In this document: positions 34,175-38,331 of the stretch, piece after piece | Layout of the letters: each line of letters begins with the position of its first letter | Numbering within the stretch: position 1 is the first letter of the stretch | Origin: Cytophagales bacterium | Lineage (GTDB): Bacteria; Bacteroidota; Bacteroidia; Cytophagales; Thermoflexibacteraceae | Length of the DNA: 38,331 bases | Reading direction: 5' to 3' | NCBI GenBank assembly: GCA_013298985.1 | Contig: JAAFJS010000026.1 | Span: 1 to 38,331 of the forward strand | The notes under the pieces: generated by a model | What the model was told of the DNA's origin: nothing | The model's input: the letters and a program-made list of their open reading frames with translations, nothing else | Database searches by the model: none | Made by a program: the position numbers and the translations under genes

Positions 34175-35452
34175 TTGAATATAAACGATTTTTTGCAATC
34201 CTCAGTGCAGGATTTTATACTGAAAAATGAAAATGCAGACCCACATCAGCTGGCGTTGAAGGCACATCTGTATCCTGAACTTCCTATTTCATTGATTATC
34301 AATCAGATTGGCGCAAGGCAGAAGGCAAAAACCAAACTTCCTTCATTCTATCTCCAAAAAGATATTATTTATCCTGTGGCACTTTCTTTGGAACAATGCT
34401 CGTCAGAACAAACAGCTTCTTACAAGGCTAACTTATTGAAAGGCAATTTGTTAATAGATTTGACAGGCGGCTTTGGTGTAGATGCTTATTTTTTGAGTAA
34501 AAACTTTGAGAAAGTGATTTATGTAGAAAAAAATGCGGAATTAGCAGCAATAGCCAAACACAACTTTCAAGTTTTAAAGGCTGATAATGTGGAAGTTATC
34601 AATGCTGATGCGATAGATTTCCTCACCAAATTTGAGGGAATGGCAGACTACATCTATTTAGACCCTGCGCGTCGCGATACTGCCAACAGAAAAATGGTGC
34701 GATTAGAAGATTGCGAGCCTAATATATTGGAAATCATGCCTTTGTTAAAAGAAAAAGCATATAAAATTGTGTTAAAAACCTCTCCAATGCTCGACATCGA
34801 CTTAGCAATAAAGGAATTAAAAACAGTACGAACTTTACCAACACTTACAACTTTGCCAACAGTGGAACGAAGTGAAAACTTTGTCAACAGTTTAGTTCAA
34901 AACTTTGCCAACAGTTCCATCAAAATCATCGTCTTATCCGTAGAAAACGAATGTAAAGAAGTCATTTATTGGATAGAAAAGGGTAGGGGAGAGGCTAACC
35001 CAGTGCAGACCATTAATTTTTCTAAAAATAAAATCCAACAGTTTGATTTTGAAATACTTACAGAGCAAAATGCAGTGATAGATTATTCATTACCACAAGC
35101 ATATCTTTACGAACCCAATGCTTCCGTTTTGAAGGCAGGCGCATTCAAAAGTGTAGCCTTGCATTACAAGCTGGCTAAACTCCACGTAAACAGTCATTTA
35201 TATACCTCAAACGGATTAGTAGCAGATTTTGCTGGGCGTATTTTTAAGATACACACCATCAGCAAATTAGATAAAAAAGAATTGCAAAAATATCTCCCTG
35301 AAAATAAGGCAAATATTGCCGTCCGCAACTTCCCACTTTCTGTCGCCGAAATTCGCAAAAAAACAGGCATCAATGAGGGCGGAGAAACGTATCTCTTTGC
35401 CACCATTGATGCCGAAAACAAAAAAGTAGTGCTGATTTGTACGCGTATTTGA
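34175..35452 (+). CDS. class I SAM-dependent methyltransferase with C-terminal THUMP-like domain (interrupted by an in-frame repeat)
   Basis: 425 residues, start codon TTG at 34175; no ATG fits. The methyltransferase core has motif I LLIDLTGGFGVDAYFLS (92-108), an acidic loop (YVEKNAELAAIAKHN), and a catalytic-loop region YLDPARRDTANRK (161-173), which is DPxR rather than the RNA-type NPPY. The C-terminus has the THUMP-like region of the family (DKKELQKYLPENKANI, VRNFPLSVAEIRKKTG). Members of this family are predicted nucleic-acid methyltransferases of unknown target. Residues 219-247 (RTLPTLTTLPTVERSENFVN and SLVQNFANS) are not expected between the predicted core strands and are encoded by a repeat with four copies of a 15-mer (34829-34915). 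The protein is thus about 29 residues longer than expected. The gene ends 3 bp from the GH16 stop on the other strand. Confidence 0.85.
   Translation: MNINDFLQSSVQDFILKNENADPHQLALKAHLYPELPISLIINQIGARQKAKTKLPSFYLQKDIIYPVALSLEQCSSEQTASYKANLLKGNLLIDLTGGFGVDAYFLSKNFEKVIYVEKNAELAAIAKHNFQVLKADNVEVINADAIDFLTKFEGMADYIYLDPARRDTANRKMVRLEDCEPNILEIMPLLKEKAYKIVLKTSPMLDIDLAIKELKTVRTLPTLTTLPTVERSENFVNSLVQNFANSSIKIIVLSVENECKEVIYWIEKGRGEANPVQTINFSKNKIQQFDFEILTEQNAVIDYSLPQAYLYEPNASVLKAGAFKSVALHYKLAKLHVNSHLYTSNGLVADFAGRIFKIHTISKLDKKELQKYLPENKANIAVRNFPLSVAEIRKKTGINEGGETYLFATIDAENKKVVLICTRI
34829..34915 (+). repeat. in-frame coding repeat: four copies of AACTTTGCCAACAGT
   Basis: The 15-mer AACTTTGCCAACAGT occurs at 34849-34863 (exact) and 34901-34915 (exact), with one-to-few-base variants at 34831-34845 and 34877-34891. 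Starts are 18, 28 and 24 bp apart. The two exact copies are read in different frames (TLPTV and NFANS), yet the whole stays open. A related insert lies in pdxH at about 37966-38030. Confidence 0.88.
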
Positions 35453-35455
35453 GAT

Positions 35456-36292
35456 TTATTGATAAATCCTGACATAGTCTATTTCCATGCGCTGTGGAAA
35501 AATGGTATCATCAATACCCTTCTGACCGCCCCATGAGCCGCCAACGGCTATATTGAGCAAGAGATAAAAATTAGAGGTAAACGGATAAGTATCCCTGCCA
35601 ATCCCATTATTAACAAAGGAAAAATATTTCTGGTCATCTACATACCAGTCTATTTTGCCGCTTGTCCACTCTATAGTATAAGTGCGAAAGGCGGTTTGCG
35701 AATCTTCAATTCGGATTTGCGCGCCTTTTTGCGTGCCAATACTATGGTTATAGGCTTTGGTATGAATCGTTCCATGAATAACGTTAGGGTCAAAGCCTAC
35801 GTGTTCCATAATGTCTATTTCGCCATCATCAGGCCACTTCAAGGGGTTGGTAGAGGCGAGCATCCATATCGCGGGCCACGTACCTCTGCCTTGGGGGAGT
35901 TTGGCGCGTATCTCGAATTTGCCATAAGTCCAGTCGCCTTTGCCCTTGGTAACGAGGCGGGCTGAGGTATAGCTATTGCCTCCAAAATTTTCTTTGTGCG
36001 CCTCAATGATGAGCTTTCCATCTTCGACTCTGGCATTTTGGAGGCGGTCTTTGGCGTAATATTGCCTTTCTTGGTTGCCCCAACCTGCGCCGCCCACATC
36101 ATATCCCCATTTCTTGGAATCAGGCAGTCCTGTATAATCGAACTCATCTGACCAGACCAATTTCCTCTCCGCGGGGGGATTAGTAACGAAATTATCAACC
36201 ACAGGTGGCAGTGTAGGTGGAACTGTTTGATTTTGCTTACAAGAAAAAAGATATAATACTGAAAAACAGGCAATTAAGATGAGATTTTTCAT
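35456..36292 (-). CDS. GH16 family beta-glucanase lipoprotein (laminarinase-like)
   Basis: 278 residues. The N-terminus (MKNLILIACFSVLYLFSC) is a lipoprotein signal with Cys18 in LFSCK, followed by a Pro/Thr-rich linker. The GH16 domain shows WSDEFDYTG, a WGNQERQYY segment, YGKFEIRAKLPQGRGTWPA, the active-site GEIDIMEHVG with nucleophile Glu158 and acid/base Glu163, and GGSWGG near the end. The order GEIDIMEH (ExDxxE with one extra residue) is the laminarinase/lichenase type. It likely cleaves beta-1,3 or mixed-linkage glucans at the cell surface. A well-formed TTG-N18-TATCTTTG promoter lies upstream on the same strand. It is convergent with the THUMP-like methyltransferase gene (3-bp gap). 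Confidence 0.92.
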   Translation of the reverse strand: MKNLILIACFSVLYLFSCKQNQTVPPTLPPVVDNFVTNPPAERKLVWSDEFDYTGLPDSKKWGYDVGGAGWGNQERQYYAKDRLQNARVEDGKLIIEAHKENFGGNSYTSARLVTKGKGDWTYGKFEIRAKLPQGRGTWPAIWMLASTNPLKWPDDGEIDIMEHVGFDPNVIHGTIHTKAYNHSIGTQKGAQIRIEDSQTAFRTYTIEWTSGKIDWYVDDQKYFSFVNNGIGRDTYPFTSNFYLLLNIAVGGSWGGQKGIDDTIFPQRMEIDYVRIYQ

Positions 36293-36400
36293 TTTCTTTT
36301 GATATAATTAAGTGAATAAGTATAATTTTTTCATAAAGTTACAGATAATTCATTCAATTATTTAACAAGGTTTACCAAAAATTTATTATTGAAATTTATA

Positions 36401-36429
36401 CAAAGATAAAAGACAAAATAAATTCCCAA
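36401..36429 (-). promoter_or_regulatory. Bacteroidota-type promoter of the GH16 gene
   Basis: On the minus strand, TTG (36427-36429), 18 bases, then TATCTTTG (36401-36408) matches the TTG-N17-23-TAnnTTTG consensus of the phylum. Transcription would start near 36394, giving a leader of about 100 nt before the ATG at 36292. Confidence 0.6.
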
Positions 36430-36437
36430 TAATTGTG

Positions 36438-36445
36438 TAGCTTTG
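36438..36445 (+). promoter_or_regulatory. possible -7 box for the methyltransferase at 36486
   Basis: TAGCTTTG on the plus strand matches TAnnTTTG, 40 bp before the ATG at 36486. No TTG box was seen at the usual distance. Confidence 0.35.
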
Positions 36446-36485
36446 CTCACAAACAATTTTCATTTTTTTCTTACAAATCGCTAAA

Positions 36486-37403
36486 ATGCCTCATCATCAA
36501 ACAGAACAATCAGACAACAAAATTATTGACCTTATCACTCTTCCTATTGCCCATGAGGACATCAAAAAATATTATGAAATTGCAGGCATGGACTATCAGG
36601 CATGGAGTGAGGCACTCAATATGCACTTTGGGTATCTTGAACGATGGACAGATATTTTTTCCTTAGAAAAAATGCTCAATCAGATGAGCCAAATGGTCAT
36701 CAAAAAGCTACAATTAGCTGATTTCTCTCAGCCAACCGCCTTAGACATGGGCTGTGGCATGGGTGCAGTGGCGCGTGAACTGGTGCGTATTTACCCACAG
36801 GCACGCGTAACGGGCATCACGATTGTAGATAGTCAAATCAATTATGGAAATCACCTTTCTCAAAATGAAAACCTGCATGAAAAAGTCAAAATCATCAAAA
36901 ATGATTATGAAAACATGAGTTTTGAGGACAACTCTTTTGATGTAGCCTATGCGGTAGAGAGCAGTTGTTACGCGCAAGGGGCTGGTAAAGAAGCACTTAT
37001 CTCAGAAATGAGGCGAGTTTTGAAGGAAGGTGGGCGTTTTGTGATTATAGATGGTTTTTTGAAAAAGCCTGCAAAAATGCCTTATTTGCTCCAAAAAGCC
37101 TATTTGCGCCTTTGTCGCTGCTGGGCATTGCCTTGCTTGGCTACGATGACCGTTTTTGAGGAAACCCTGAAAAAAAATAACTTTAAAAACATCAAAATTG
37201 AGGAAATTTCGTGGAAAGTAGCTCCTTCGGTCGCGCACGTGCCTCGCGTTACCCTCAAATTTTTGTTCCAAGAACTTTGGCGCAATAAATCCCTGAAACT
37301 TGCCCCCGAACGTTGGGACAATATCGTTTCTCCACTCTTGACCATGTTTCTGGGGCTTTGGCGCAATTATTTTGGGTATTATGTCGTGAGTGGAGAAAAG
37401 TAA
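36486..37403 (+). CDS. class I SAM-dependent methyltransferase (UbiE/tocopherol-type)
   Basis: 305 residues, single domain. SAM-binding motif I is ALDMGCGMGAVAREL (85-99), followed by an acidic ITIVDSQINYG region, and motif II/III DVAYAVESSCYAQG and LKEGGRFVIIDGFL. The pattern is that of small-molecule or lipid methyltransferases related to UbiE and gamma-tocopherol methyltransferase, not of DNA or rRNA enzymes. No signal or membrane helix was seen, although the Trp/Leu-rich C-terminus (FLGLWRNYFGYYVV) may touch membranes. The substrate is unknown. ATG start at 36486 with a TAGCTTTG box upstream; divergent from the GH16 gene and convergent with the acetyltransferase. Confidence 0.85.
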   Translation: MPHHQTEQSDNKIIDLITLPIAHEDIKKYYEIAGMDYQAWSEALNMHFGYLERWTDIFSLEKMLNQMSQMVIKKLQLADFSQPTALDMGCGMGAVARELVRIYPQARVTGITIVDSQINYGNHLSQNENLHEKVKIIKNDYENMSFEDNSFDVAYAVESSCYAQGAGKEALISEMRRVLKEGGRFVIIDGFLKKPAKMPYLLQKAYLRLCRCWALPCLATMTVFEETLKKNNFKNIKIEEISWKVAPSVAHVPRVTLKFLFQELWRNKSLKLAPERWDNIVSPLLTMFLGLWRNYFGYYVVSGEK

Positions 37404-37424
37404 AAGTGGTTTAACCTCACATTT

Positions 37425-37916
37425 TCAAAACTTCCCATACTGCCACGAGGCAAGTTTTTCGGGAAGCACAGTGCAGTTTATCCACTCAGGGGCGAGTTCT
37501 GCGCCACATTTCTTGTAAAAATTAATCGCTGGCGTGTTCCAGTCCAGCACCTGCCACATCACGATTGCCATATTTGTTTCCACTGCTCTTTTGACCACTG
37601 TATCCAGCAGCATTTTCCCCAAGCCAAATTGACGGTATTTTTCGGTAACAATCAAATCTTCCAAATACAAGCACTGCCCGCGCCAAGTCGAATAACGAAT
37701 ATAAGTGAGTGCCATGCCCACAATTTCAGGTTTTTCGTCCGTAGTTTCTGCCACAAAAAACTCAAAAACAGGATTGTTGCCAAACCCATCTTCGAGCATT
37801 CTTGCGGGCGAGTTGCTCACCAGATGCTCTCCTTTTTCAAAAACTGCCAATTCCATGATGAGGCGAAATGCGTCCTCAATGTCTTGGGGAGTGCCTTTGC
37901 GAATAGTATAATTCAT
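37425..37916 (-). CDS. GNAT-family N-acetyltransferase (diamine acetyltransferase-like)
   Basis: 163 residues from the chosen ATG at 37916 (MNYTIRKGTPQDIEDAFRLI); an ATG at 37943 would overlap pdxH and add nine residues. The acetyl-CoA loop is YRQFGLGKMLL (Q/R-x-x-G-x-G), preceded by LYLEDLIVTEKY, and ended by INFYKKCGAELAPEW; the pattern is closest to spermidine/spermine or thialysine N-acetyltransferases. It would transfer acetyl from acetyl-CoA to a primary amine. It starts 16 bp after the pdxH stop on the same strand and is probably in its operon. The substrate is inferred only at family level. Confidence 0.88.
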   Translation of the reverse strand: MNYTIRKGTPQDIEDAFRLIMELAVFEKGEHLVSNSPARMLEDGFGNNPVFEFFVAETTDEKPEIVGMALTYIRYSTWRGQCLYLEDLIVTEKYRQFGLGKMLLDTVVKRAVETNMAIVMWQVLDWNTPAINFYKKCGAELAPEWINCTVLPEKLASWQYGKF

Positions 37917-37932
37917 TTTTTTGCTTAAAATT

Positions 37933-38331
37933 TTAGGGTGCAAGCCTTTCTATTTTCCAGTTATTTTCTGTACTGTTTTCAACTGAACTGATGCTAAAGT
38001 TTTCACTTTGTTCAACTGTTGGCAAAGTTTGTTTGGTGTATCGAATCCTGTCGTGCAAGCGGCTTCTTCTGCCTTGCCAAAACTCAATGGTCTGAGGGAC
38101 AAGACGATAGCCTCCCCAATGCGCGGGGCGAGCAAGCAATTCATCTTCATATTGCTGTTCCAAGATTTGCATTTGCTCTTCCAAGAAATTGCGATTTTCA
38201 ATCACCTGACTTTGAGGGGAAACTACAGCACCAATTTGGCTTTTCTTGGGTCTGCTTTGGAAGTAAGTATCTGAAATACTGGTAGTTACCTTTTCTACTT
38301 TGCCTTCAATGCGTACCTGTCTTTCCAGCTC
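37933..38331 (-). CDS. pdxH: pyridoxamine 5'-phosphate oxidase PdxH (5' end cut; contains an in-frame repeat)
   Basis: The last 132 codons and the stop are present. PdxH oxidises pyridoxamine or pyridoxine 5'-phosphate to pyridoxal 5'-phosphate with FMN. Family landmarks: [61 protein letters not shown] and the C-terminal WKIERLAP. In other PdxH proteins only a few residues join RLHDR..Y to W-x-I-x-RL-P; here about 24 residues ([20 protein letters not shown] and then TEN) are inserted. They are encoded by a copy of the 15-mer repeat also present in the THUMP-like methyltransferase. The insertion is close to the C-terminus, near where residues contribute to FMN/substrate binding, so it may be tolerated in a surface loop. 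The acetyltransferase gene follows by 16 bp. Confidence 0.93.
37966..38030 (-). repeat. in-frame coding repeat inside pdxH
   Basis: On the minus strand AACTTTGCCAACAGT is present exactly (38015-38029), and a variant AACTTTAGCATCAGT lies 28 bp on (37987-38001), the same spacing as copies two and three in the methyltransferase gene. Over 33 bases, 31 are identical to 34850-34882. Both are read as TLPTVE(R/Q)SENF. Confidence 0.85.

Follow-up and report, generated by a model that had tools for sequence, protein, structure and literature searches.

A REP-type hairpin repeat inserted in frame in unrelated genes of a Cytophagales bacterium and its probable spread by a RAYT-type transposase

Knowledge of in-frame palindromic inserts in Rickettsia genes dates from 2000, and coding palindromes also occur in Wolbachia and Methanocaldococcus; we know of no enzyme that has been identified as spreading the Rickettsia palindromic element (RPE) RPE-1. 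Here, we analyze a short hairpin repeat that lies in frame in two genes, encoding a THUMP-like methyltransferase and the pyridoxamine 5'-phosphate oxidase PdxH, in a 38,331-nt stretch of the genome of a Cytophagales bacterium (assembly GCA_013298985.1, contig JAAFJS010000026.1, positions 1 to 38,331; hereafter, the window), and that is dispersed through the rest of this genome and found in some of its relatives.

The closest described systems are of three kinds. Repetitive extragenic palindromic (REP) sequences, their paired form (REPINs), and REP-associated tyrosine transposases (RAYTs) combine bulged hairpins of 20-50 nt, present in many copies, mostly intergenic and near gene 3' ends, with head-to-head pairs and a RAYT gene that has such a hairpin on either side (PMC2817692, PMC8266576, PMC6006769); the Escherichia coli enzyme TnpAREP cleaves and recombines REPs in vitro (PMC8266576). 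Many known genes also harbor in-frame REPs with a GTAG or CGTC tag (Di Nocera et al. 2013, PMC3733652); these are frequently dimers that code for 20-30 amino acids, thought to be tolerated in linkers or loops. The same source reports in-frame copies in many tagged families, including RPE-4 and RPE-6 of Rickettsia conorii, with the richest intragenic cases in Opitutus terrae and R. conorii, and CGTC repeats in Bacteroidetes; REPs lie in frame within TnpAREP genes as well (PMC6006769). Finally, RPEs are palindromes of 105-146 bp that occur in frame in unrelated conserved genes, with 19 Rickettsia frames reported, and also between genes (PMC2229807). The repeat analyzed here resembles REPs and REPINs in its bulged hairpin, its many mostly intergenic copies near 3' ends, its head-to-head pairs and, in one related genome, a RAYT-like gene bracketed by the same hairpin; in its in-frame copies it resembles the intragenic REPs and the RPEs. 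Unlike REPs, however, it has neither a GT[AG]G nor a CGTC tag, the RAYT-like protein falls short of the NCBIfam cut-off, and no cognate RAYT was found in the window's own genome. Because the tag is absent, we keep the repeat out of the GTAG and CGTC superfamilies; from the RPEs it is set apart by its smaller size, 34-47 nt. Among the open-licence papers that our searches listed, we recognized none that describes this repeat. In-frame palindromes were already known as RPEs and intragenic REPs; an untagged form of them in Bacteroidota with a linked transposase is new. The first-pass annotation, made from the window alone, had known of no named counterpart in this phylum; REP/REPIN repeats with RAYT-type transposases, including their published in-frame copies, provide one.

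The repeat unit is an imperfect hairpin, AACTTTGSCAACAGTT-loop-AACTTTGSCRACAGTT, of 34-47 nt with a conserved bulge. The annotation had taken an exact 15-mer as the unit and placed three copies of it in the window; these are present (34849-34863 and 34901-34915 on the forward strand and 38015-38029 on the reverse strand), but the 15-mer is only one arm of the hairpin. As the element itself, the exact 15-mer was rejected, as it occurs six times in the genome versus at least 47 copies found with the hairpin model. With up to three mismatches allowed, it occupies eight places in the window compared with a mean of 2.43 in shuffled sequences, and none of 100 shuffles reached eight. Also borne out were the variants 28 bases away in both genes (at 34877 with one mismatch and at 37987 with three), the 33-base block shared by the two genes (31 of 33 positions match, or 32 of 34 when the block is one base longer), and the identity of the hosts, which Pfam recognizes as a PG_1098/THUMP-like methyltransferase and PdxH. 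The two exact 15-mers of the methyltransferase gene are, as a correction, translated in different frames. The covariance model used throughout (R1) derives from 23 motif-selected copies in the window's own genome, which hence match it by construction. Among these copies, 93% of the cells pair, a share that is partly built in because the motif arms are complementary. The two-sided changes are free of this effect: they occur at seven of 15 pairs (e.g., from G-C to C-G in six sequences) and amount to 18 cells versus 5.0 in shuffles, a number matched by none of 500 shuffles. Of five covariation measures, four were unmatched in the 500 shuffles. Two short-loop copies fold with z-scores of -3.6 and -3.5. 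The REP-like format of a short bulged palindrome of 20-50 nt is therefore supported by the short-loop copies and by covariation, while the long-loop coding copies fail on folding energy.

In the window's own genome (G000; relatives are labeled G0nn, contigs C, and extracted loci L), the motif with at most one mismatch occurs 71 times versus eight for the reversed pattern, a ninefold enrichment. The R1 scan gave at least 55 places at E <= 5 and at least 47 at E < 1e-3; the latter is a lower bound because 150 of 5,179 first-look candidates were scored, equal to the 150 scored in each other genome. With genes taken as open frames, without a gene finder, 36 of these copies are non-coding and 11 are in frame, distributed over 10 genes. 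The non-coding copies lie between genes that are unidirectional (17), convergent (13), or divergent (four) or at contig ends (two), and a gene 3' end is within 30 nt for 21 of them; a copy on C322, scored as non-coding, sits inside a 181-amino acid open frame that has no significant Pfam match. Four weaker matches were left uncounted, on C331 (E 1.2), C334 (E 2.2), and C124 (E 0.24) and at hairpin 1 of the methyltransferase gene. All 47 counted copies are distinct, without a single identical pair. Open frames make up ~87% of a 389-kb sample, and 11 coding copies of 47 is far below the random expectation (binomial P about 3e-23), arguing that genic copies have been purged unless tolerable. The genome thus has what is typical of REPs and REPINs, namely many dispersed copies that are mostly intergenic and near 3' ends. 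The repeat is of the REP type, and the in-frame copies are survivors of selection; the element is not one tailored to coding sequence. Accordingly, the proposal of the first-pass annotation of a mobile, frame-preserving coding element holds in part: the genome-wide search for which it called recovered a repeat that is dispersed, in frame in many unrelated genes, and missing from orthologues, but the 36 copies outside genes contradict the expectation that the repeat would always sit in an open frame, and the repeat is neither specific to coding DNA nor inherently frame preserving.

The 10 host genes, all recognized by Pfam, encode the methyltransferase, PdxH, FolC, CysN, NuoL, an ABC ATPase with two matches, a histidine kinase, an APH-like kinase, an exosortase, and a DUF2339 membrane protein; FolC, CysN, and NuoL were so named from Pfam, from PDB matches in the case of FolC and NuoL, and from general knowledge. 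In a 5-oxoprolinase/hydantoinase gene (C124), a copy below the threshold was spotted by eye. The methyltransferase has one match in its own genome; among the 39 genomes searched, including its own, 31 matched, and the locus was present and aligned in 29 of the 30 matching relatives. Residues 219-249 are missing from all 29 orthologues, including two of the same genus. Likewise, none of the 11 relatives searched has the net 20 codons between RIRYTKQ and WKIERLAP, with which the segment splits PdxH where the annotation had placed it. Both segments thus sit where the aligned orthologues have nothing comparable, in line with the annotation. The CysN segment is missing from eight of eight orthologues, including one of the same genus that is 93% identical over residues 1-168 (three of 11 relatives gave no CysN), and the FolC segment is missing from 10 of 10 (one relative had no match). 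In PDB alignments, the ABC ATPase diverges exactly at the insert, NuoL is unaligned there in the two matches viewed, and FolC has about 10 extra residues. In-frame insertion in conserved genes with absence from orthologues is also the mode of the RPEs, to which the annotation had likened the repeat, and this likeness holds.

In the AlphaFold2 model of the methyltransferase (mean predicted local distance difference test score [pLDDT] of 91.5), residues 220-229 are the sole segment of three or more residues with a score below 50; the inserted residues thus probably form a flexible loop at the protein surface. In PdxH, the insertion point is presumably a turn between strands, as judged from general knowledge of the fold. 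Four arms in the methyltransferase insert (starting at 34831, 34849, 34877, and 34901) make up two tandem hairpins, and the ERSE part of its peptide is the junction between them. Its sequence, GTT-GAACGA-AGTGA-AAC, translated as VERSEN, resembles what would arise where two hairpins meet head to tail; this junction, GGAACGAAGTGAA, is similar to the ARYG flanks beside the hairpins of the related genome G039, and such flanks explain the VERSEN part of the peptide.

Other repeats accompany the hairpin in some host genes. A second palindrome, GTCAGTG AGGA CACTGAC, is in frame in the CysN gene (C54, L196, at 1237 and 1720), where it adjoins the first hairpin, and in the 5-oxoprolinase gene (C124, L189, at about 5205); it is translated as VSEDTDNG or VSKDTDNG, and related copies occur elsewhere in the extracted stretches. 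Near residue 200 of CysN (C54, L196), there is a third repeat-like segment, PSPMERGAGGEA, at a site where the orthologue from the same genus carries another insert of its own. The histidine kinase and ABC ATPase genes adjoin each other on C281 (3,922 bases) and together carry three hairpin matches.

In most of 38 relatives, the motif is near its control; in some, it is enriched two- to fourfold (e.g., 18:4 in G002, 23:7 in G012, and 32:11 in G005). Among the candidates scored, up to 150 per genome, R1 matched at least 79 places in G039, at least 29 in G005, at least four weakly in G001 (two on one place), at least three in G009, and at least one in G012, with none in G002 or G040. G039 is the metagenome-assembled genome JAUHXA01 ("Bacteroidia bacterium 2_bin.42"), in which the hairpins are frequently head to head and coding copies occur in both orientations. 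Identical twins exist for 25 of 58 G039 35-mers (10 on another locus and the rest nearby), whereas all G000 copies are distinct; based on this difference, the repeat looks more recently active in G039. One 12-kb locus of this genome (L299, G039:C174:1-12000) is a single 4,000-codon open frame for a nonribosomal peptide synthetase/polyketide synthase (NRPS/PKS) with 16 R1 matches at E <= 0.01 in both orientations, of which 13 score 25.9 bits or more. One hairpin lies within an AMP-binding domain match, one within an acyltransferase match, and another where a condensation-domain match starts, at profile position 117. Further repeats in this frame are translated as TSPNPLQRGN.

Importantly, the hairpin is linked to RAYT-like genes in G039. 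R1 hairpins lie on both sides of one such gene (L291:2627-3415), and two head-to-head pairs lie behind a second (L301:1-606), the other side of which is a contig end; in G003, a related gene is directly followed by a GC-rich hairpin that shares the layout but has diverged in sequence. NHFH and one tyrosine are invariant across 15 sequences of this family, the protein matches the NCBIfam model REP_Tyr_transpos (REP-associated tyrosine transposase) with E 2.7e-14, and its best PDB match by Foldseek is 4er8, TnpAREP bound to a REP hairpin (E 7.5e-8). The HUH motif, the catalytic tyrosine, and the TnpAREP fold of a RAYT are therefore all present, and the hairpin flanks RAYT-like genes in G039 (on both sides of one and behind another) and, in its diverged form, lies behind one in G003, but it does not flank any in G000. 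Among 11 RAYT-like genes viewed (of 17), seven have one palindrome on both sides, each with its own sequence, in a raw count without a shuffle control; in the remaining four, the palindrome is one-sided, the flank is missing from the data, or none matches. Each of the RAYT-like genes at L312, L313, L318, L321, and L326 lies between copies of a palindrome of its own; several of these palindromes are perfect, e.g., ACACCTGTCAGGTTTTTAAAACCTGACAGGTGT beside L313. Judged by the motif table of PMC6006769, the G039 protein looks nearer to subclass 2.1 than to subclass 2.6; according to that source, subclass 2.1 genes had no REP-like sequences beside them, and the GT[AG]G tag is absent from subclasses 2.6 and 3 too.

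Altogether, these data make it probable that the repeat is a non-autonomous REP-type hairpin that was spread through the genome by a RAYT-type Y1 (HUH) transposase recognizing the single-stranded hairpin. We infer mobility from the distribution of the copies and not from observed excision or insertion. According to this model, the RAYT would recognize the hairpin in single-stranded DNA and move or copy it; insertions would be scattered, and those in genes would persist only if their length leaves the frame open and the encoded residues end up in a loop at the surface. Because no matching RAYT was found in G000 and each of its 47 copies is unique in sequence, the G000 inserts are probably old relics of past activity.

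Alternatively, the repeat could be an RPE-like coding palindrome spread by other means, such as gene conversion, template switching, or an IS200-type TnpA acting in trans, with the G039 RAYT-like genes being bystanders or themselves hit by the repeat. We consider this unlikely, yet it has points in its favor: G000 has copies but no match to the G039-type RAYT, it does contain five IS200-type TnpA matches over the full length (one of them including a stop) plus three partial matches that are RAYT-like, and adjacency to two RAYT-like genes is weak evidence alone because the repeat is frequent in G039. However, bystander genes do not account well for hairpins that flank one RAYT-like gene and directly follow a second and, in G003, a third, nor for the same palindrome on both sides of most of the RAYT-like genes viewed. 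Mobilization by G000's own IS200-type or RAYT-like genes was considered and rejected, as the best R1 match in the eight Y1_Tnp loci has 13.2 bits (beside C5); an R1 match of 15.7 bits lies some 6 kb from the RAYT-like gene on C24, and the genes on C24 and C95 are surrounded by other palindromes. These include GGTCAAGATTTGCAATCTTGACC on both sides at C95 and GGTTTAAGGCTCTGCCTTGAACC-type repeats at C24.

It is quite improbable that the inserted peptide was selected for a function of its own, e.g., as a tag or an interaction motif. In G000, the 11 coding matches all share one reading strand, and by hairpin seven are in the TLPTV frame, three in the NFANS frame, and one, in NuoL, in the third, as a selected peptide might be. 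However, among the non-coding copies it is likewise the TLPTV frame that is open most frequently (34 of 36), the G039 coding copies occur in both orientations, and the methyltransferase segment is modeled with low confidence, like disordered loops. A strong frame preference was rejected on the 7, 3, and 1 split, and a strand bias as a property of insertion was rejected as it is present in G000 and not in G039. Least probable of all, to the point of being negligible, is that the two inserts stem from loop variability in the host proteins or from local duplication, with one segment copied from the other between genes within about 4 kb: in the genome, nothing matches the methyltransferase segment more closely than the pdxH segment does (BLAST of 34829-34920, E = 1e-12, well beyond chance; a CysN gene on another contig is found with E 9.7e-10), but the census places copies on many contigs, in eight further genes, and in other genomes.

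Several observations weigh against the favored model of a REP-type hairpin spread by a RAYT. First, in the case of the hairpin itself, the long-loop coding copies fold poorly, two of them no better than shuffles (z-scores of -0.3 and +0.4) and a third slightly better (-1.0), and on one covariation measure, further pair types, 32 of 500 shuffles did as well. Sequences flanking the 36 non-coding G000 copies are unconserved and show no GT[AG]G or CGTC tag, and ARYG within 8 nt on both sides is found in none of these 36 versus 35 of 62 viewed G039 copies. A run of T was not seen in these flanks either, in which no scan aimed at intrinsic terminators was made. Second, in the case of the insertions, the orthologue comparison covers four of the 10 genes (those for the methyltransferase, PdxH, CysN, and FolC), and the FolC case is weaker because FolC loops vary in length among orthologues anyway; neither a target-site duplication nor an exact empty site was found, the same-genus relatives being too diverged for base-level junctions. 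Third, in the case of the enzyme, the two G039 proteins score 53.3 and 50.8 bits with NF047646 versus a curated cut-off of 80, which is why we call them RAYT-like, and the Pfam Y1_Tnp match has an E of only 0.046. A G039-type RAYT was not found in G000 or in six others of 14 genomes searched, and the RAYT-like genes of G000 (on C24, C95, and a broken one on C108) have other repeats, and no R1 hairpin, alongside.

The features of the window are listed in Table 1. The end of the window (38077-38331) overlaps the contig end at C323:30262-30516 over 255 bases with 96% identity, both lying in pdxH; this overlap is probably strain variation that broke the assembly.

Table 1. Host genes, inserts, and hairpins in the window
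Feature	Positions	Strand	Basis
PG_1098-like/THUMP-like S-adenosylmethionine (SAM) methyltransferase gene, insert-bearing, 425 amino acids	34175..35452	+	Open reading frame; Pfam PF22013 and PF18096
Methyltransferase insert, 31 codons (residues 219-249)	34829..34921	+	Missing in 29/29 aligned orthologues
Methyltransferase insert, hairpin 1 (degenerate)	34831..34864	+	R1, 20.8 bits, E 0.086, under the counting threshold
Junction GGAACGAAGTGAA separating the two head-to-tail hairpins of the methyltransferase insert	34864..34876	+	Sequence
Methyltransferase insert, hairpin 2	34877..34916	+	R1, 45 bits, E 8e-10
pdxH (pyridoxamine 5'-phosphate oxidase), C-terminal part, gene cut by the contig end	37933..38331	-	Pfam PF10590; PF01243 just below its cut-off
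pdxH insert, net 20 codons, RIRYTKQ before and NWKIERLAP after	37969..38028	-	Missing in 11/11 orthologues
pdxH insert hairpin, long-loop form	37986..38029	-	R1, 49.6 bits, E 2.4e-11

More generally, we tentatively suggest, as a proposal with somewhat less than even chances, that a branch of Y1 transposases in Bacteroidota, similar by motif to one that was described in 2018 as lacking REPs, carries untagged palindrome families, one per gene, that spread freely into coding DNA, including core enzymes and, 16 times, a single megasynthase frame. If so, this branch would provide a candidate enzyme for coding palindromes of the RPE type, and insertion could be tested in vitro; since the hairpin family brackets a transposase of the RAYT fold in another genome, the spreading step is open to experiment. 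For annotation, our findings are a warning that TLPTVERSENF-type segments in core enzymes derive from repeated DNA and are not domains. Moreover, the inserts point to loops in which another 20-30 residues may be accommodated.

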